NCBI GenBank assembly: GCA_001549895.1
Contig: AP014719.1
Span: forward strand, 2,976,001-3,040,000
From: Arthrobacter sp. Hiyo8
Lineage (GTDB): Bacteria; Actinomycetota; Actinomycetes; Actinomycetales; Micrococcaceae
DNA: 64,000 bases
Reading direction: 5' to 3'
Shown piece after piece: positions 19,254-28,684 of the stretch. The position numbers were made by a program, and so were the translations under genes. The notes beneath the pieces were generated by a model. That model ran no database searches, was not told the DNA's origin, and saw only the letters and a list, made by a program, of their open reading frames with translations. Position 1 is the first letter of the stretch. Every line of letters starts with the position of its first letter.

Positions 19254-20054
19254 ATGACTCAGAATCAGACACAGGCTCCAGGTTCAAGCCGGCCTCCTCG
19301 CATCGCGTTGACCACTTATCTTCAAAACGCGAAATGGGGGATTTGGGACGCGCGGGCAGCGGTACTGCCGGCAACGTATTTGGAAGCCGTGGTGGCGGCA
19401 GGCGGCACCCCTCTCCTGCTGCCGCCCATCGGCACCGATACTTCCGTCCTTGACCTCGTGGATGGCCTCGTTGTGGTGGGAGGCGCCGACGTCGACCCCG
19501 GAAATTACGACGCCGAGCCCCACCCGAGCACACGCAGCCAGCCCGAGCGGGACGAGCACGATATCTCGTTGACGCTGGCGGCCTTGGAGAAGGGCATTCC
19601 GCTCTTCGCGATCTGCCGCGGCGCGCAAATCCTCAACGTGGCCCTGGGCGGAAACCTCATCCAGCACGTGCCGGACGTGCTGCCCGAGGCGAACTACCAA
19701 CCTGCTCCCGGAGTCTACGGGGAGGTTGAGTTCGATACTCGGCCGGGCAGCATCAGCGCGCAACTACTAGGTGAAAAGGCATCGGCGCCGGTCTATCACC
19801 ACCAGATTCTTGACCGGGTTGCCGAAGGCCTTTGCGTCACCGCGCGTGCGGCGGACGGGACGGTCGAGGCCGTCGAATCGACCCAAGGAAGTTGGGCGTT
19901 GGGCGTTCAGTTTCATCCTGAACAAAATCGTTCCGACGTGCGGCTCTTCGAAGGATTCATTGAGGCTGCCAGAAGGTACCGGGACGGGGAACTCTACGCT
20001 GAGCGCCTCAACCCATCGACGGAATTCACAGCGACAGAAAAGAGCTGGGCGTGA
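19254..20054 (+). CDS. gamma-glutamyl-GABA hydrolase family protein (PuuD-like)
   Basis: Intact class I glutamine-amidotransferase fold (peptidase C26), 266 aa. Nucleophile Cys121 in FAICRGAQILNVALGGNLIQ, catalytic His in GVQFHPEQNRS. Predicted to release glutamate from gamma-glutamyl carboxylic acids such as gamma-glutamyl-GABA, the last step of a Puu-type pathway. It begins 3 bp after the ligase stop and overlaps the next start (GTGA). Confidence 0.9.
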   Translation: MTQNQTQAPGSSRPPRIALTTYLQNAKWGIWDARAAVLPATYLEAVVAAGGTPLLLPPIGTDTSVLDLVDGLVVVGGADVDPGNYDAEPHPSTRSQPERDEHDISLTLAALEKGIPLFAICRGAQILNVALGGNLIQHVPDVLPEANYQPAPGVYGEVEFDTRPGSISAQLLGEKASAPVYHHQILDRVAEGLCVTARAADGTVEAVESTQGSWALGVQFHPEQNRSDVRLFEGFIEAARRYRDGELYAERLNPSTEFTATEKSWA

Positions 20055-21413
20055 GTGCCACAATTTTTGACATCATCAATCCGGCCACAGAAGAGTTCCT
20101 TCAAACCGTTGAGCTGGCATCCCTCGCCGAAACGGACGCGCTGATTGCCCGCGCGGCCGCTGCCTTCGAGACCTGGCGGAACGTGTCGCCGTCGGACCGG
20201 GCACTGCTCCTGCGCCGGTTCGCGGCCGCCGTCGACGCCGATCTGGAGAACCTCGCGCAACTGGAAGTCCGCAACGCGGGGCATACGATCGGCAACGCCC
20301 GCTGGGAAGCGGGCAATGCGCGCGACGTCATCAGCTACTACTCGGCGGCTCCTGAGCGGCACTTCGGGCGGCAGATCCCCGTTGCCGGAGGCCTCGATGT
20401 GACGTTCCACGAGCCATTGGGCGTTGTCGGCATTATTGTGCCGTGGAACTTTCCGATGCCGATCGCGGCGTGGGGCTTCGCTCCGGCGCTCGCGGCGGGC
20501 AACACGGTGGTACTCAAACCCGCGGAACTTACGCCGCTGACCGCGATGAGACTCGGGGAGCTGGCGCGCGAGGCCGGCCTGCCCGATGGCGTGCTGACTA
20601 TCATCCCCGGGAAGGGCTCCGTTGTGGGGGCGCGCTTCGTCACCCACCCTGCGGTGCGAAAGGTCGTCTTCACCGGGTCCACCGGGGTTGGCAAGCAGAT
20701 CATGGCCGGTTGTGCCGACCAGGTGAAGCGCGTGACGCTCGAGTTGGGGGCAAGAGCGCGAACATCGTGTTCGCCGACGCCGACCTTGAGGCCGCTGCTG
20801 CCGCAGCACCAGGCGGCGCGTTCGACAACGCCGGCCAGGACTGCTGTGCCAGGTCCCGGATCCTGGTGGAAAAATCGGCCTACGACAGCTTCTTGGAGCT
20901 TCTCGAGCCCGCCGTTCGGGCTGTCAAAGTCGGCGACCCGGCGGATGAAAGTACCGTCATGGGCCCTTGATTTCCGCCCGGCAAAGGGAAACCGTTGCAG
21001 GCTTTGTGCCCTCGGGAGCGCCCATAGCCTTCCAAGGCGACGTGCCCGAGGGGCCGGGATTCTGGTTCCCGCCCACGGTCCTGGCTCCCGACTCCTTCGA
21101 CGACCCGGCAGTGCGGGAGGAGATCTTCGGACCGGTCGTCGTCGTCGTTCCCTTCAACGACGAGGCGGACGCCGTCCGGATTGCCAATGACACCGAATAC
21201 GGCCTCTCCGGATCGATCTGGACCCAAGACATTGGCCGGGCCTTGCGCGTGGCCCGCGGGGTGGAAGCCGGAAACCTCTCGGTGAACTCCCACTCTTCAG
21301 TCCGGTATTCGACGCCGTTCGGCGGCTTCAAGCAATCGGGCCTGGGCCGCGAACTGGGTCCCGATGCCCTCGATTCCTTCAGCGACGTAAAGAACGTCTT
21401 CATCGCGCACTGA
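20051..21413 (+). CDS. NAD(P)-dependent aldehyde dehydrogenase (PuuC-like), two frameshifts
   Basis: Rossmann and catalytic domains of the ALDH superfamily: VGIIVPWNFPMPIAAWG, FTGSTGVGKQI, LELGGKSANIVFADADLE (general base Glu), catalytic Cys in NAGQDCCARSRI, and EEIFGPVVVV. Shifts lie near 20752 and 20968; both restore the conserved text. A GTG start overlaps the PuuD-like stop. Expected to oxidise a gamma-glutamyl-aminoaldehyde to the acid that PuuD then cleaves. Confidence 0.9.
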
Positions 21414-21456: not shown

Positions 21457-22238
21457 ATGACCGAATTCATTTCACACCGACTCAAGGACCGCACTGCCGT
21501 CATCACGGGCGGCGGCAGCGGGATCGGCCTGGCCACCGCAAAGCGTTTTGCCTCGGAGGGTGCCAACGTGGTCATCGCCGATATCGATCCGGCAGCCGGA
21601 GAAGCAGCCGCGGCCGCCGTCGATGGCATCTTCGTGAAGGTCAACGTCACAGACGAGCAGGAAGTCATTGACCTCTTCGCCGCTGCCAAGAGCCACTACG
21701 GCAGCGTCGATATCGCGTTCAACAACGCGGGCATTTCGCCGCCGGACGATGCATCCATCCTCGACACCGAATCGACGCCTGGCGCCGGGTCCAGGAGGTC
21801 AACCTGACGAGCGTCTACTACTGCTGCAAATACGCGCTGCCGTACATGTTGGAGCAGGGCAAGGGCTCGATCATCAACACCGCGTCCTTCGTGGCCGTGA
21901 TGGGTGCGGCGACCTCGCAGATCTCCTACAGCGCCTCCAAGGGCGGCGTGCTGGCCATGACCCGTGAGCTCGGCGTCGAATTCGCGCGCAAGGGTGTGCG
22001 AATCAACGCGCTGTGCCCGGGACCGGTCAACACTCCGCTGCTGAAGGAACTCTTCGCCTCCGATCCGGAGCGGGCCGCGCGGCGCTTGGTCCACGTGCCC
22101 TTGGGCCGCTTCGCCGAGCCCGAGGAACTGGCCGCTGCGGTCGCCTTCCTGGCGAGCGACGACGCCTCGTTCATTACCGCTTCGACCTTCATGGTTGACG
22201 GCGGAATCTCCGGAGCCTACGTCACGCCGATCGACTAG
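21457..22238 (+). CDS. short-chain dehydrogenase/reductase, one frameshift
   Basis: Classical SDR: cofactor motif TGGGSGIG near residue 18, NNAG, and the catalytic YSASK (Tyr-x-x-x-Lys). One base is missing near 21772 (ILDTE then DAWRRVQEVNLTSVYYC in the next frame). About 261 aa. It closes the Puu-like cluster. Standard Puu pathways use an FAD oxidase (PuuB) to make the aldehyde, and none is seen here; this SDR could act on an alcohol-type amine product instead. That role is inference. Confidence 0.85.
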
Positions 22239-22253
22239 CGGAAGCTTCCAGGT

Positions 22254-22286
22254 CGGTTCCCCACTCCAGTGGTGGGTGGGGAACCG
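22254..22286. terminator. hairpin between convergent SDR and uraH genes
   Basis: CGGTTCCCC (22254-22262) and GGGGAACCG (22278-22286) form a 9-bp perfect stem with a 15-base loop, directly between two converging stops. No T run follows, so termination efficiency is uncertain. Confidence 0.6.
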
Positions 22287-22291
22287 ATGGG

Positions 22292-22632
22292 TTAGCTGCC
22301 CCGGTACGTGGAGAACGCGAAGGGCTGAGCAGGAGCGGCACGTGGTAGTGCTCACCGGCGTCGGACACCGTGAAGCTCAAGTCCACCTCCGGGAAAAAGG
22401 TGTCAACGCCTTGTGCCTTGTAATACGGACCGGTCGCGAAGTTCAAGCGGTAACTGCCGCCGTCGACCCTCTCAGGGCCAAGGTCCTTGATCCGGCCGTC
22501 CGCGTCCGTGGTGCCGCTAGCTACGTGGCGCCAGTTGTCGCCGTCGCGCACGGAGAGAACGACGGCGACGCCGGCCGCCGGGCGCCCGGAACCGGTGTCG
22601 AGGATGTGGGTGGTGATCTGGGAAACACTCAT
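22292..22632 (-). CDS. uraH: 5-hydroxyisourate hydrolase, frameshift at the C-terminus
   Basis: Transthyretin-like enzyme that opens 5-hydroxyisourate made by uricase. The start MSVSQITTHILDTGSGRPA has the conserved His9 region, with GPYYKAQGVDTFFPEV in the middle. The hallmark C-terminus YRGS is recovered in the next frame (PFAFSTYRGS, stop at 22292) if one C is restored near 22323. About 113 aa, normal. The gene overlaps uraD by 4 bases. Confidence 0.93.
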
Positions 22633-23159
22633 TTGCTGGGCTCTCCTTCGCTGCTCCCGCTGTCTTCGCTGATCACGCCGGCAAGACGCAGCAGGGCGAT
22701 TTCGCGCAATTGTCCGGCCACGATCAGGTCTTCTTCTTCCGCGGTATGGGTCAGGCGCTCGTGGAGGGAGGCCAGGATGTCGTTGGCTGTCCGTCCTGCT
22801 GCCCGGATGAGGAAGACGCGGCCGAACTTGGCCTCGTACTCTCGGTTGCCTTCGGCCAAAGCGGTGACGACTCCGTCATCGCCGGGGTCGACGCCCGTCT
22901 GTTCGGAGCGGGACATCGCGGCTTCGGTGGTCTGCGCCTTGGGTCGTTCGCCGATCCGCGGGTGATGGGCCATCGCGGCCGCCACTTCGTCCGACGTGAA
23001 CGGCTCGGCGGTTTTCCGGGCGAAATCGAGCAAGGAGTCCAAGCCGCTGAACGGACGCGCATCTGCGATGTGCTCCACCCAACGCTGGATGTCGAGGCAT
23101 GGGCGGAGGACGTCGATGGCGTCCGCACGGTCCACGCTGTTGAATACTTCAAGCTGCAT
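22629..23159 (-). CDS. uraD: OHCU decarboxylase
   Basis: 2-oxo-4-hydroxy-4-carboxy-5-ureidoimidazoline decarboxylase, the last step from urate to (S)-allantoin. Intact, 176 aa. The active site motif HPRIG contains the catalytic His66; SRSEQTGVD follows. It is transcribed first, then uraH via an ATGA overlap. A partial copy of the GntR operator lies about 140 bp upstream. Confidence 0.93.
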   Translation of the reverse strand: MQLEVFNSVDRADAIDVLRPCLDIQRWVEHIADARPFSGLDSLLDFARKTAEPFTSDEVAAAMAHHPRIGERPKAQTTEAAMSRSEQTGVDPGDDGVVTALAEGNREYEAKFGRVFLIRAAGRTANDILASLHERLTHTAEEEDLIVAGQLREIALLRLAGVISEDSGSSEGEPSK

Positions 23160-23298
23160 GCTTGTTCATTCCTCGTGCGAGTGCTGGCATCCATGGTGTT
23201 GGCTATGCGGAACTCCGGCGATTCCTGCCGGATGGACCTGCGCGCCTCCGCACTCCAGGCCTTCCACATCATGGAACTGTTATTTCAGCATACGTAAT

Positions 23299-23310
23299 AG
23301 TGAATCCAAT
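23299..23310. promoter_or_regulatory. half-site matching the 6132 GntR operator
   Basis: The 12 bases AGTGAATCCAAT are identical to 6147-6158, the right arm of the perfect palindrome plus flank. The other side (near 23285-23297, TCAGCATACGTAA) is a degenerate arm. The position, about 140 bp upstream of uraD, suits an operator. Which GntR protein binds is inference. Confidence 0.5.
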
Positions 23311-23378
23311 GACAGCCGTGGTGTCAAGAGAATACCGCACCCCGGTCCTCCCTCCTTCCCGCTTTGGCCTCTCTGCGA

Positions 23379-23453
23379 CGCTCGCTCACTTATGCCGCCG
23401 TCTCCCGAAACGCTCGCTCACCTTCGGTGGGTTCTACCGAAACGCTCGCTCAC
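23379..23453 (+). repeat. three units of a 32-bp-period repeat (core CGCTCGCTCAC)
   Basis: The core CGCTCGCTCAC occurs at 23379, 23411 and 23443, exactly 32 bases apart, with a partly conserved remainder (ends CCGAAA). The same core family fills 24594-24844 at the other end of the aminotransferase gene. Confidence 0.85.
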
Positions 23454-23502
23454 CTTCGTCGCCTGGTGGACAATGTCAGCAACAAGCCAAAGGAGTTCCG
23501 TC

Positions 23503-24593
23503 ATGCCAGAGGTCCTGACTTCCCGGTATCTGTTCGGGCCGGGTCCCAGCAATTGCTATCCGGAAGTGACGGCCGCATTGGCGTATCCGGTGATCGGGCA
23601 CCTGGATCCCGTGTTCATCGAGCGACTGGACCGGACATGCGCGGGGCTTCGGACGGTGTGGGGACCCGGAATGCCCGCACCCTGCCGTTGAGTGCCACTG
23701 GTTCCGGCGGCATGGAGGCTGCCTTTGTTAATACAGTGTCCGACGGCGACGTGGCAGTCATTGCCGTCAACGGGCTTTTCGGGGAGCGCATGTGTGAGGT
23801 CGCCCGGCGGTGCGGTGCCACGGTGGTCCGCGTCGACCATGAATGGGCCAACCGGTGGATGCGGAGCGGGTCCTCGCCGCGCACCCCCATCCCAAGGTGA
23901 TTGCCGCTGTCCATGCCGAAACCTCCACGGGTGTCCTGTCCGACGTCGCGCCCCTTGGCGCCGGCAAGGGCGACGCCTTGCTGATCGTGGACGCGGTGAC
24001 GTCCATCGGCGGACTGGAACTCCTGGCTGACGACTGGGGGATCGACGTCGGGTATGCCGGGACGCAGAAGTGTTTGGGAGCGCCCCCTGGCTTGTCCCCG
24101 TTCACAGTGTCCGAGCGCGCTTTCGAGCGGCGCATCAAGGAGCCGCGTTCGTGGTACCTGGATATCGGCCTTCTGGGTGGGTATGTTGGCGCGGCGAGTG
24201 GCAGCCGAACGTATCACCACACGGCGCCAGTGACCATGATCGCGGGGCTAGAGGCGGGACTTGACCGCATCTTGGCCGAGGGGCTCGCGGCTGTTCAAGC
24301 GCGGCACCGTGCCGCCGGGGCCGAGTTGCGCGACGGCCTCGAAGCGATGGGGCTCGAGCTGTTTGCCGCGGAGGGCTCGCGATTGCCAAGCCTCACCACG
24401 GTCAAAGTGCCCGACGGCGTGGACTCGGCCGCCGTCCGCGCCTACCTTCTGGAGAACTTCAGTATGGAAATCGGCTCCGGGCGGGTGCGTTTACGTCGAC
24501 CGTTTGGCGGATAGGCATGATGGGCCGAATGCCAACAGGGCGTCGGTGAAGCTCGTGCTTGGCGCGCTGGAAGAAGCGATCGCGAAGGCCTGA
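23503..24593 (+). CDS. alanine/serine-glyoxylate aminotransferase (PucG-like), several frameshifts
   Basis: PLP aminotransferase class V. Start MPEVLTSRYLFGPGPSNCYP; SGGMEAAFVNTVSDGD is the cofactor loop; LLIVDAVTSIGGLEL holds the PLP Asp; AGTQKCLGAPPGLSP contains the Schiff-base Lys. Shifts near 23663, 23848, 24485 and 24520 each restore conserved text (the last gives MMGPNANRASVKLVLGAL). It would transfer an amino group to glyoxylate released by ureide breakdown, or act as ureidoglycine-glyoxylate aminotransferase as PucG does in Bacillus. Both ends are bracketed by repeat arrays. Confidence 0.8.
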
Positions 24594-24844
24594 CCCTCGC
24601 TCACATATCGACGCTCAAGCCATGACGCCCGCTCACATATCGACGCTCATGCCGTGACGCCCGCTCACATATGAAGGCAATTCCGAAATGCCCGCTCACT
24701 CCTGGCCGAAAATAGAGAGTCCTCCTGCAGATCATGATCTGCAGGAGGACTCTCTATTTGGCCTCATAGGTGAGCGAGCGTCGACCCGGGAGTCGTCATA
24801 GGTGAGCGGGCGTCGGCCCGGGAGTCGTCATAGGTGAGCGGGCG
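24594..24844. repeat. composite inverted repeat array with 32-bp period
   Basis: Four left units with core CGCCCGCTCAC or close variants start at 24594, 24626, 24658 and 24689. Three right units in opposite orientation (GTGAGCGAGCG or GTGAGCGGGCG) start at 24770, 24802 and 24834. A 50-bp perfect palindrome sits between the two sides. The array begins on the base after the aminotransferase stop and ends on the base before the peroxiredoxin stop, so it is the entire spacer. Confidence 0.9.
24710..24759. terminator. 50-bp perfect palindrome, bidirectional terminator
   Basis: Left half runs AAATAGAGAGTCCTCC through GCAGATCA and the right half is its exact reverse complement, 25 bp each. GGCC at 24704-24707 and 24760-24763 extends it imperfectly. 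ATTT/AAAT ends give a short T stretch on both strands. It lies between the convergent aminotransferase and peroxiredoxin genes. Confidence 0.85.
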
Positions 24845-25312
24845 TTACAGGCCGAGTTCGGCCTTCAGGGCTGCTACGTGGCCCTGGGCCTTGACCTGGT
24901 ACTGGGTCAGCTTGACCTTGCCTTCGCCGTCGAGCACTACGGTGGAGCGGACCAGTCCGTCGACTACCTCGCCGTTCACGAGCTTCTCGCCCCAGGCGCC
25001 GTAGGCCAGCGCTACTGCGTGGTCTTCGTCGGAGAGGAGCGGGAAGGTCAGGGAGAAGTCGCCGGCGAAGTGTGCGATCTTTTCCGGGGCGTCCGGGGAG
25101 ATGCCCAGGACTTCGTAGCCGGAGGACTGCAGGCTGGCAAGGCTGTCGCGGAAGTCGCAGGCCTCTGTGGTGCAGCCGGGGGTGGCGGCTTCCGGGTAGA
25201 AGTACACGATGACGTTGCGTCCGCGGTAATCGGACAGGGAAACTTTCTGGCCTTCGGAGTTAAGCAGCGCGAAATCGGGGGCCTGGGTTCCGGCGAGGAG
25301 TTTCTGGGTCAT
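24845..25312 (-). CDS. bcp: thioredoxin-dependent thiol peroxidase (Bcp/PrxQ)
   Basis: Intact 155-aa peroxiredoxin of the Bcp/PrxQ type. Peroxidatic Cys47 and resolving Cys52 lie in TPGCTTEACDFRD, the five-residue spacing typical of PrxQ, with DYRGRNVIVYFYPEAATPG before it. It reduces hydroperoxides in the cytoplasm. The stop codon touches the end of the repeat array. Confidence 0.93.
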   Translation of the reverse strand: MTQKLLAGTQAPDFALLNSEGQKVSLSDYRGRNVIVYFYPEAATPGCTTEACDFRDSLASLQSSGYEVLGISPDAPEKIAHFAGDFSLTFPLLSDEDHAVALAYGAWGEKLVNGEVVDGLVRSTVVLDGEGKVKLTQYQVKAQGHVAALKAELGL

Positions 25313-25379
25313 GTTGCGATCCTTGACTTGTCGGGCAACCGCCGTGGCCGGCGATCAATCTAATGGTGTAACGGGCTGC

Positions 25380-26086
25380 CTAGATGCAGTATTCCGCAGG
25401 TCCGCGGACGGTGGAGCCTGGTCCGGGCACGAACTGGTAGCCGCCTCCACGCACCGTGGCGATGACATGGCGGGCTGAGCCCAGCTTGCGCCGGACGCGT
25501 CCAACATACACGTCGATCGACCGAAATGCCGCGCCGGGACAGTCAAGTGACTCCAAAAAGCGTTGCAATTCTTCACGTGGGATGGGGCGGGACAGGTTTT
25601 CCACGAGGTAGCGGAGGAGGCTGTGTTCCATCGCGGTGAAGCTGACAGGCACACCGTCGAGGAGGACGGTATTCGCGGCCAGGTCTACTGCCACGGTGCT
25701 GCGTCGTCCGGCCAGGGAGACCGGCGACGGAGCGGTTGCGCGGTTTTCGGCGTCGGGCACTTCCGACGCCGAACCGCCGTCGGACGCGGCGCCGGACGCG
25801 CCGGAAGAATCACAGGACGTTGCGGCTCCGGCGGCGGGCCAAAGGAGGACTTCCGCCCCGGAGCAAGTTTGCGGGCCCGGGCCAGGACCGCTTCCGCGGC
25901 CCGGCCCAAACCTCGGGATCGATCTCGCGGCCTTCGCCGGGCTGTACCCACACGGCGAGTCCGCGCGGAAGCATCCCGGGCCGAACCAGTCCGGGCCGAA
26001 GCCCGGAAGGTCGGGGGCGGGCTGGTGCCGCGAGCGTTGAGCCGTGCGGGCAGTTGCCCGTACGGGGCATGGACGTTGACGGCCAT
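25380..26086 (-). CDS. OmpR/PhoB-type winged-helix protein, frameshifted N-terminal half
   Basis: The C-terminal 125 residues are a clear Trans_reg_C winged helix: VDLAANTVLLDGVPVSFTAMEHSLLRYL, then SIDVYVGRVRRKLG and IATVRGGGYQF. No receiver domain is present. Upstream the coding text changes frame at least twice: MAVNVHAPYGQLPARL at 26086 and GLAVWVQPGEGREIDPEVW around 25950 appear to belong to the same protein. It starts 10 bp beyond the allantoinase stop, so it may be the last gene of the ureide operon. Confidence 0.65.
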
Positions 26087-26095
26087 GGCTTGGCC

Positions 26096-27455
26096 TTACA
26101 CGCCGCCGCGGCGAATCAGCTTGCCGCTGGGCGTCCGGCCGTCGATCTCGCTGCCGCGCAGGTACGTTTTGCGTACGACGCCGGAGAGCGCCTTGCCGTC
26201 GTACGGCGTGATCGGGTTCTTGTGCTTGAGCTTCTTGACGTCGACGACGAACGCGTCGTCGGGCGCGAAGATGGAGAAATCAGCGTCGTACCCGAGCGCC
26301 AGCTGGCCTTTATTGTGCAGGCGGGCCAAGGCGGCAGGCTTCTCGGACATCCAGGAAACCACCTGCTCCAGGGTGATGCCGCGGTGCCGGGCTTCGGTCC
26401 AGATCAGAGAGAGCCCAGCTGCAACGAGGAGACCCGCCCCAGGCCACGGCGAAGTCGCCGTTTTCCAGGTCCTTCAGGTCAAGCGTCGAGGGCGAGTGGT
26501 CCGAGACGATGCAGTCGATGGTGCCGTCCTGTAGGCCCTGCCAGAGCAGCTCGCGGTTGGAGGCCTCGCGGATGGGCGGGCAGCACTTGTACGCGGTGGC
26601 GCCGTCGGGGATTTCCTCGGCCATGAGGGTGAGGTAGTGCGGGCAGGTTTCAACGGTGAGGTGCACGCCGTCGCGCTTTGCCGAAGCGATCATCGGGAGG
26701 GCGTCCGACGACGAGAGGTGCAGTATGTGCGCACGTGCACCGGTCCAGCGGGCACGTTCGATGACCTCGGCGATGGCCTTGTTCTCGGCGCCGCGCGGGC
26801 GGGAGGCAAGGAAAGTGGAGTAGTGCGCGCCGCCGGGGTGGGGTGCGTGGTCGATCGCGTGGGAGTCTTCGGCGTGGACGATCATGAGGGAGTCGAAGGA
26901 CTTGAGCTCCGCCATGTCCTCTTCCATCTCGTCCGCGTCCAGGTGCGGGAACTCGTCCACACCGGAGTGGAGCAGGAAGCACTTGAAGCCGAAGACGCCC
27001 TCGTCATGCAGCGGGCGGAGGTCCTTCTTGTTGCCCGGGATGGCGCCGCCCCAGAATCCGACGTCCACGAACGCCTGGTCCTCGGCAACTTCGCGCTTGA
27101 GCTTCAGGCCTTCCACGTTGGTGGTGGGCGGAATGGAGTTCAGCGGCATGTCGATGATGGTGGTGACGCCGCCGGCTGCCGCAGCGCGCGTGGCGGAGGC
27201 GAAGCCTTCCCATTCGGTGCGGCCGGGCTCGTTGACGTGAACGTGGGTGTCAACGAGGCCGGGGATGAGGGTTTCGTCGTCGCCGAGCTCGATGATTTCG
27301 GTGCCCTGCAGGCCGTTGCCCAAAGGCTCGATAGCGACGATCACGCCCTTGCGGACGCCGACTTCGCGAGCGGTGATACCGGCGGTGGTGAGGATGCGCT
27401 GGCCGCGGATGACCAGGTCAAACGGGCCGTGTGCCGTGGTGGTTTCTTCAGACAT
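26096..27455 (-). CDS. allB: allantoinase, one frameshift
   Basis: Zinc amidohydrolase that opens allantoin to allantoate. [20 protein letters not shown] carries the HxH metal ligands, [10 protein letters not shown] the carbamylated Lys, then [22 protein letters not shown] and [10 protein letters not shown]. One base is missing near 26425; the next frame ends [19 protein letters not shown]. Start [18 protein letters not shown] at 27455 overlaps the end of the glycerate kinase by 8 bases. Confidence 0.93.
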
Positions 27456-28684
27456 GGAGTTGCTCCTTGGTCTCGGTTCGCGCTGCGTCTTGGGTGGATA
27501 CCGCTTTTTCAGAGAGGCGCACGCCGATGTGCTTACCCAATTCTTCAAGCAGCGGCCCTGCTTCAGCTATACATTTCTCTACATTGGATTCGAGCTCGGT
27601 CAATGCGTGGACCGACTCGAAACCGGACTCCGAAAGTTGTTCCGGGCTCAGCGTACTGCGGCCGCAGACGGCAATCACAGGGATCCCCGATCGCGCCGCC
27701 GCCCGCGCCACGCCATCGGCGTTTTGCCGAGCAGGCTTTGTTCGTCGAGGCTGCCTTCGCCGGTGATCACCAGGTCCGCGCCGGCCAACCGCTGCTCGAG
27801 TTCAGTGAATTCGAGCACGACGTCGATGCCCGGCCTGCGTGCCGCGCCCAGCGCCGCGATGGCGATGTAGCCGACGCCGCCTGCCGCACCAGCGCCCGGA
27901 GCCTGTGCGGCGTCCTGGGCTTCGGAGCCGATCTCGTTGGCGAGGACCTGGACGAAGTGGGCCAGAGCCGCGTCGAGCGAGGCGACATCGTCCGGCGTCG
28001 CGCCCTTCTGCGGTCCGAAGATCGCGGCGGCGCCGGTGCGGCCCAAAAGGGGATTGTCGACGTCGGACGCCAGGACGAACTCGGTGACCTCCAAGCGGAC
28101 GTCGAGGTTCGAGAAGTCGATCCGGTCCAGGCGGGCCAGGGCCGCGCCGCCGCCGGGGAGTTCGTTCCCTTCGGCGTCGAGTAGGACGGCGCCGAGGGCC
28201 TGCAGGACGCCGGCGCCGCCGTCGGTGTTGGCACTCCGCCGACGCCGAGGATGATGTGCCGGCAGCCGAGGTCCAGGGCGGCGCGGATGAGTTCGCCCGT
28301 GCCCAGGCTTGTGGAGCTCTTGGCCGTTTCGGTATTCGGGGCGCTGCCGTCGCCGAAGCCCGGCAGCACCGCAAGCCCGGAGGCCGCAGCCATTTCAATG
28401 ACGGCTTCCTCGCCGCGGACCGCGAACTCGGCCGTGATCGGCTGGCCCGTGGGTCCGGTGACCGTCGTGCTGCGGCGGGTGAAGCCGGAGCCGACGGCGG
28501 CGTCGAGAGTCCCCTCGCCGCCGTCGGCCACTGGAATGAGAGTGGTTTCAAAGCCCTCGGCTGGCAAACTCGCCGCTGCGCGGCCAGCGGCAAAACCTGC
28601 CCGCAATCCGGCGCTCAAGCGGCTGGCGACCTCGGGAGCTGACAGCGATCCCTTGAACTTGTCCGGGGCTATGACCACACGCAT
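27448..28684 (-). CDS. glycerate kinase (GarK/GlxK family), two frameshifts
   Basis: Starts [20 protein letters not shown] with the family's PDKFKGS motif; [20 protein letters not shown] and [17 protein letters not shown] are also diagnostic. Shifts lie near 28230 and 27720. It phosphorylates D-glycerate at the end of the tartronate-semialdehyde route from glyoxylate. Position between glyoxylate carboligase and allantoinase ties it to ureide catabolism. A second, distinct copy serves the tartrate operon at 41221. Confidence 0.9.

Follow-up and report, generated by a model that had tools for sequence, protein, structure and literature searches.

A convergent-gene spacer of Arthrobacter sp. Hiyo8 is a member of a genus-specific family of phased, oriented gene-end arrays

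The window, a 64,000-nucleotide stretch of the Arthrobacter sp. Hiyo8 genome, contains an aminotransferase gene and a thiol-peroxidase gene in convergent orientation, and the spacer between them consists of repeat array throughout, from stop codon to stop codon. The array (24592-24846) comprises four left units, a 50-bp perfect palindrome, and three inverted right units. The features of the locus are as follows.

22629-23159: UraD-family gene of the ureide pathway, near the aminotransferase gene
23377-23453, + strand: second array of three units, lacking an inverted arm with the exact core, in the spacer 5' of the aminotransferase gene
23503-24593, + strand: class-V aminotransferase gene, left neighbor, placed from tblastn pieces, with the family taken from an intact orthologue
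24592-24699, + strand: left arm, four units; a similar arm lies 3' of the orthologous aminotransferase gene in other species
24592-24604, 24624-24636, 24656-24668, and 24687-24699, + strand: 13-nt heads of the left arm, the first overlapping the aminotransferase TGA
24710-24759, no strand: central 50-bp perfect palindrome (25+25 bp), a hairpin module with CTCCTGCAGATNATCTGCAGGAG at its heart; pairing computed
24770-24846, - strand: right arm, three inverted units; arms lie at the same gene end in relatives
24770-24782, 24802-24814, and 24834-24846, - strand: heads of the right arm, the last overlapping the peroxidase TAA
24845-25312, - strand: thioredoxin-dependent thiol peroxidase gene (bcp type), right neighbor

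Re-reading the window confirmed the layout given in an earlier, sequence-only reading: left cores start at 24594, 24626, 24658, and 24689 (spacing 32, 32, and 31 bp), right cores start at 24770, 24802, and 24834 (spacing 32 and 32 bp), and the 25+25 bp palindrome is perfect. This reading took an 11-bp core to be common to all units; the left 11-mers are, in order, CCCTCGCTCAC, CGCCCGCTCAC, CGCCCGCTCAC, and TGCCCGCTCAC, with two of the four departing from the core as it was quoted, and the first right core has GAGCG in place of GGGCG. The array had also been described as flush with the two stop codons, which are TGA at 24591-24593 in the left gene and TAA at 24845-24847 in the right gene (TTA on the + strand). 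The cores do start directly after the TGA; however, the unit head is 13 nt long (RACGCNCGCTCAC) and has bases in common with both stop codons, and because of this overlap the feature is 24592-24846.

The aminotransferase gene is split over several frames in the Hiyo8 assembly, and overlapping broken frames were observed in the window at 20051-21413, 23503-24593, and 27675-28684. These broken genes suggest indel errors in the assembly, and some of the 31- and 33-bp spacings may be errors of this kind. An assembly join as the source of the palindrome, a possibility raised in the sequence-only reading, was rejected, since this palindromic centre is found again in further arrays and in other species and its hairpin covaries. 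A scan of the window array found neither a promoter nor a T-run terminator. The array folds strongly (RNA z -12.4; DNA z -12.1) because its cores and centre pair, and in an Rfam analysis of 22000-27000, MIR538 matched the palindrome (E 0.15) and Scr6925 another site (E 0.93), both under the gathering score.

The genome search for the core at 32-bp spacing proposed with the sequence-only reading was run, and random spacing was not found. The pattern CGCTCAC-N12to42-CGCTCAC has 192 matches in the Hiyo8 genome (111+81), and its reversed control has 0. Across 824 kb of contiguous Hiyo8 chromosome, 26 of the 30 same-strand CGCTCAC pairs lying ≤60 bp apart are spaced at exactly 32 bp, whereas no control word of the same composition gave more than 7 such pairs in total or more than 4 at 32 bp, the latter in an overlapping word. 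The fetched Hiyo8 stretches, of which those below 3.0 Mb were picked for holding matches, contain 73 clusters of at least two cores; 66 include a same-strand pair at 31-33 bp, and the distance between neighboring same-strand cores is 32 bp in 160/191 cases and 31 bp in 15/191. An exact-core partner arm is lacking in 21 of the 73 clusters. A period of 33 bp throughout was observed in a few arrays (G112:C54:191946-192155 and G076:C1:3396850-3396927), from which the lattice can shift as a whole array. A chromosomal strand bias of the arrays was considered and dropped, as arrays are also present on the reverse strand.

Facing arms are in phase (12+32k bp): the start-to-start distance is 12 ±1 modulo 32 in 34/48 convergent pairs of Hiyo8 itself and in 41/59 from named species, and a second class at 20 ±1 accounts for 3 and 11 pairs, respectively. 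Divergent arms are separated by 26-31 bp in 4/12 Hiyo8 cases and 8/13 named-species cases. Among arrays spelled CTCTCAC (L374-L403 and genus-scan rows), the commonest facing distance is 20 bp (7/20; 11/20 when 52 and 84 bp are counted with it), the next are 30 and 9 bp, and it is not 12 bp. Dyad geometry thus seems to go with the spelling of the core, or dialect.

The unit is oriented and 32 bp long, with a core of 12-13 nt and W-tracts at set positions; units within an arm are nonpalindromic direct repeats, and a palindrome occurs only at the junction of two arms. In Hiyo8 units, W occupies positions 15-17 in 91-99% and positions 24-27 in 56-76%, and W-runs of at least 3 at positions 22-29 were found in 67/95, 111/165, and 38/46 arms or units, compared with about one third in shuffles. 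W-tracts about 10 bases apart, together with a period of 32 bp (about three turns), fit a putative protein lying on one face of the helix. Runs of T only, which are most frequent in the G dialect (CGCTCAC), outnumber runs of A only (45 vs 4, 68 vs 12, and 15 vs 5), and because of this excess a strand-neutral reading of DNA shape is not clean. The unit middles are alike within an arm (identity 0.83 in Hiyo8, 0.75 in named species) and are not the distinct spacers of a CRISPR array, which was rejected as a candidate. Identity of the middles is 0.36 and 0.39 between opposite arms, 0.47 and 0.40 between arrays, and 0.16 and 0.19 against the reverse complement of the opposite arm, where random letters give 0.25. 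Because the middles are unpaired across the dyad, neither are the arms an inverted duplication nor is a full-length duplex under selection, and a two-arm duplex was rejected as the primary feature.

At the 12-bp spacing, the centre is CGCTCAC-5nt-GTGAGCG; at a spacing of 76-77 bp, the CTCCTGCAGATNATCTGCAGGAG module is frequent. All of the distinct related centres compared (13/13), several of which represent a single locus across related genomes, keep the 8 pairs directly flanking CTGCAG, and pairs 3-6 show compensatory changes. Pairing in the Hiyo8 window centre extends to 50 bp. An intrinsic terminator would pair a GC-rich stem with a T-run after it; here the stem is present and covaries, several centres carry a short T-run some bases past it, and the scan of the window array gave no T-run match.

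Outside the genus, 2/240 sampled genomes of the order match the strict double-core CGCTCAC pattern, with one match each. In the same draw, the pattern was matched by 2/8 genus members (Hiyo8 included), so the strict pattern misses other spellings. Among named species, a scan returned at least 104 stretches, and among the 80 matches listed, all titles are Arthrobacter, Paenarthrobacter, or Pseudarthrobacter. The array family was seen only in Arthrobacter sensu lato, with the strict CGCTCAC spelling as the probe outside the genus. Viral contigs gave 0 exact matches to either dialect pattern, and plasmids gave no match to the window array.

Within the genus, at least one loose pair occurs in 106/150 genomes, and counts range up to 330; low counts may reflect chance or coding repeats, as the control also gives a few and the rows of one genome (G121) are a coding-like short repeat. 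A second, stricter pattern covers the H dialect, in which A, C, or T replaces the G of CGCTCAC (e.g., CTCTCAC), and H-dialect pairs occur in 91/150 genomes. At least 90% of pairs belong to one dialect in 46 of the 58 genomes with ≥20 pairs in total, and the other 12 are mixed; at a threshold of 20 pairs, 24 genomes are rich in one dialect and 28 in the other, with 1 genome counted in both groups. In 41/150 genomes, neither spelling reaches 3 pairs. The two patterns differ in strictness and the genomes are not independent, and Fisher values for these counts are indicative only. That most array-rich genomes have one main core dialect suggests a trans factor that reads the core.

The spacer following the same peroxidase gene can be aligned across eight related species, together with its downstream flank, and the core spellings differ: CGCTCAC in G039 and G008, CTCTCAC in G034 and G023, and other or decayed forms in the rest. 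We read these differences as a probable change in place. Counts of CGCTCAC- and H-pattern pairs are 9 and 2 in G039, 15 and 6 in G008, 17 and 43 in G034, and 2 and 0 in G023; because the eight genomes are array-poor or mixed, the comparison shows no clean dialect switch, and the change in place is not cleanly tied to genome-wide dialect.

The same gene end bears on the history of the window array. In G012, G054, G043, G045, and G022, the gene opposite the peroxidase array is a different one, and the aminotransferase gene lies 15-23 kb off on the same contig. The aminotransferase gene of named species has an array of its own that faces a regulator gene (clear at 3/4 loci; only the far side at L066), and among the three relatives shown, its end carries an array in G012 and G022 and none in G045. 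In Hiyo8, the left arm is similar to the aminotransferase arm, and the rest of the array, centre and right arm, is similar to the peroxidase array. A search of the Hiyo8 genome for the other gene flanking that array in relatives found nothing; an empty search alone is weak, and tblastn does find the gene in G012. From these comparisons, the window array is probably chimeric, the product of a deletion that removed about 15 kb between two arrays, an event whose direction we infer. The array at the peroxidase gene end is kept in the six closest relatives, and among close relatives its unit number ranges from one or two to eight per arm. The sequence-only reading had proposed that a mobile element replaced the spacer. 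Dispersal of the family and abundance that differs strongly between species speak for mobility; however, a search for a REP-type transposase was negative, all six closest relatives have an array at this gene end, and a deletion fusing two older arrays fits better than a fresh insertion.

With genes called by a simple codon-statistics caller, no array lies >30 nt inside a called gene (0/125 named G-dialect loci, 0/14 in G012, and 0/38 H-dialect loci); without the 30-nt margin, 3/126 arrays are flagged inside genes. A different clustering of 800 kb of G012 gave 16 arrays, 0 of them coding, and 134 single coding copies of the core. The end unit pointing away from a 3' end starts ≤20 nt from the stop codon in 48/81 named, 9/14 G012, and 22/36 H cases, and an array lies ≤20 nt from a gene start in 2/62, 1/9, and 1/21, respectively. 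Flanking genes at named loci are arranged +- in 32 cases, ++ in 23, -- in 15, and -+ in 12 (14, 13, 4, and 2 at H loci). The named and H loci were fetched for holding arrays, and the even sample is the 800 kb of G012 alone, where divergent spacers of ≥60 bp (82/351, 29% of bases) hold no array. Where both neighbors were called, divergent spacers account for 12/82 named and 2/33 H arrays; arrays are absent from the divergent spacers of G012 but present in those elsewhere, which indicates depletion and not exclusion. In tandem spacers, units running along vs against the upstream gene number 82 vs 59 and 28 vs 14, a weak bias, and 33 vs 30 at H loci, where there is none. Apart from orthologues at a single locus and a handful of regulators with loose similarity, no protein family recurrently flanks the arrays.

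The gyrase sites of E. coli BIMEs are repeats placed where positive supercoils build up. They likewise lie behind genes and between convergent genes, and relief of supercoils by gyrase behind genes would fit the placement of the arrays; however, gyrase is a conserved enzyme, and by this comparison the dialects would be hard to explain.

Placement at gene ends also raises the possibility that the arrays act as RNA, either as C-rich Rho-dependent termination sites in 3' untranslated regions or as long mRNA hairpins that terminate or protect transcripts. The sense strand has C over G in all three sets (0.37 vs 0.25 in Hiyo8, 0.39 vs 0.23 in named species, and 0.38 vs 0.18 in the H dialect), which agrees with such a role, as do units that often start at or near stop codons, the strong fold of the window array (z -12.4), and the covarying central hairpin. 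Rho sites are loose, however, and would cover the C-richness only, leaving the 12-nt core, the 32-nt spacing, and the dialects unexplained; moreover, the unit middles are unpaired between arms, and the 21/73 Hiyo8 clusters without an exact-core partner arm are at odds with a long hairpin. We consider an RNA element unlikely.

Dialects are also known from the DNA-uptake sequences of the Neisseriaceae. According to passages of PMC3630211, a single core spelling predominates in each genome and varies from species to species, and the sequences form terminator-associated inverted pairs near gene ends. Uptake sequences driven by natural transformation could thus account for short cores, species dialects, and inverted pairs at gene ends. 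In the same passages, however, the Neisseriaceae sequences number in the thousands and are common within genes, and the passages on uptake sequences contain no phased tandem arrays, whereas the arrays described here are phased and tandem, far fewer, and found in no gene (0/177 coding). Single core 7-mers are not in excess either: with array copies counted, 824 kb contain 105 and 116 copies of the core on the two strands, and the control words listed have 104-242. An uptake function would explain the dialects and not the phased arrays, and we regard it as very improbable.

Four Hiyo8 arrays lie directly behind 5S genes and a hairpin (5S and 23S genes identified by Rfam). We then extended the comparison to 60 rRNA operon ends in 12 genomes, chosen by dialect and mostly for a single-contig assembly. 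Lattice pairs occur at 32/43 operon ends in nine array-bearing genomes, which include both dialects, and at 1/17 in three array-poor genomes (the one in G047); shuffles gave 0/1200. The counts are uneven between genomes (1/4 in G042, 2/4 in G055, and 6/6 in G107), and 11/43 ends in the array-bearing genomes have no array. Because the array follows an ordinary hairpin at these ends, it would be at most a backup there. The rRNA-operon arrays of G012 and G107 (L314-L324) often have a core variant of their own, GGCTCAC; a leader rich in C and poor in G separates them from the operon hairpin.

The closest known counterparts are the REP and BIME elements of the GTAG and CGTC superfamilies, which, in passages of the survey PMC3733652, are dispersed and extragenic, lie 3' of genes and between convergent open reading frames, form species-specific families, and include foldable facing copies. 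By analogy, the arrays could be a selfish or neutral extragenic repeat that was spread by a mobilizer or by recombination, grew by slippage, and has no host function; it would pile up behind genes, where insertion is least harmful, and the dialects would be founder effects of separate bursts. Abundance between 0 and 330 pairs in species of one genus, arms homogenized internally (0.83 and 0.75) and not between opposite arms (0.36 and 0.39) or arrays (0.47 and 0.40), and the probable origin of the window array at a deletion breakpoint are all in keeping with such a repeat, as is the placement it shares with REPs in that survey. Compared with RAYT-type REPs, the arrays have the extragenic, mainly 3' placement, but they have no palindromic 20-40 bp unit and no Y1 transposase was found: PF01797 matched in 0/28 genus genomes at E ≤ 0.001 and in 5/14 control genomes. 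As CGTC REPs, too, are described in passages of the survey as lacking a dedicated transposase (PMC3733652), the missing Y1 enzyme separates the arrays from the GTAG kind alone. A CGTC-type REP, which is one palindrome bearing an unpaired CGTC tag, was considered and rejected: the head ends in CGTC on one strand (GTGAGCGNGCGTC), yet the unit is not a palindrome. Further points against a selfish repeat are the tandem arms on a strict 32-bp lattice with its dyad phase, which dispersal and placement do not explain; flanking genes that share no recurrent protein family apart from orthologues and regulators of loose similarity; arrays at rRNA operon ends in both G- and H-dialect genomes; and orthologous arrays with different cores at one location, although in array-poor or mixed genomes. 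We treat a REP-like repeat as a serious possibility, if not the one we favor.

Five observations have to be explained jointly, namely the unit spacing, the phase across the dyad, the core dialects, placement at gene ends, and the covarying hairpin, and we infer that a stacked protein that reads the core, together with a hairpin, would cover all five. The explanation that we tentatively prefer, with a probability of roughly 0.4, is that the arrays are oriented, helically phased, predicted protein-binding sites that, with the hairpin, mark the ends of transcription units. A sequence-specific DNA-binding protein would occupy one unit after another along a single face of the helix (three turns being about 32 bp), and the bound protein and central hairpin would together form a boundary that halts or blocks RNA polymerase from either side, both between convergent genes and downstream of rRNA operons. 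An arm would act for the gene with the adjoining stop codon, arms would grow and shrink by tandem duplication, arrays would recombine with each other, and dialects would track changes in the preference of the protein. The sequence-only reading had likewise suggested phased sites for a DNA-binding protein; the lattice, the fixed dyad phase, the core dialects, and the positional W-tracts give this suggestion indirect support, although no protein was found.

Such a boundary would resemble the eukaryotic rRNA-gene roadblock terminators (Reb1 and TTF-I), which are oriented protein sites behind rRNA genes. The comparison concerns how the two might work and claims no homology; the arrays are known from sequence, and they also lie behind many protein genes. 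Roadblock termination that depends on an RNA hairpin and a roadblock protein is described in PMC12366685. That the arrays are a previously undescribed, genus-specific transcription-unit boundary system, a functional analogue of these terminators with protein and sites co-evolving into dialects, is a proposal that we think rather unlikely. We found no description of such arrays in the openly licensed literature, although a prior description elsewhere is possible: Arthrobacter is not mentioned in the main text of the REP survey (PMC3733652), and a table in the RepRanger paper (PMC12306157) gives a generic REP count for one Arthrobacter.

If a protein reads the arrays, they would represent a new bacterial way of marking the ends of transcription units, and the dialects would be a natural experiment in which a protein co-evolves with dozens to hundreds of sites. 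Even if selfish, the arrays would form a REP-like family that lacks the usual transposase and shapes chromosomes, as the deletion of about 15 kb probably marked by the window array illustrates. In addition to the arrays, a lone hairpin with a AACGCCCGCTCAC-like head was observed upstream of the start of a response-regulator-like gene (L216-L218, L220-L223, and L230), where it is conserved even when the core of the nearby array differs.
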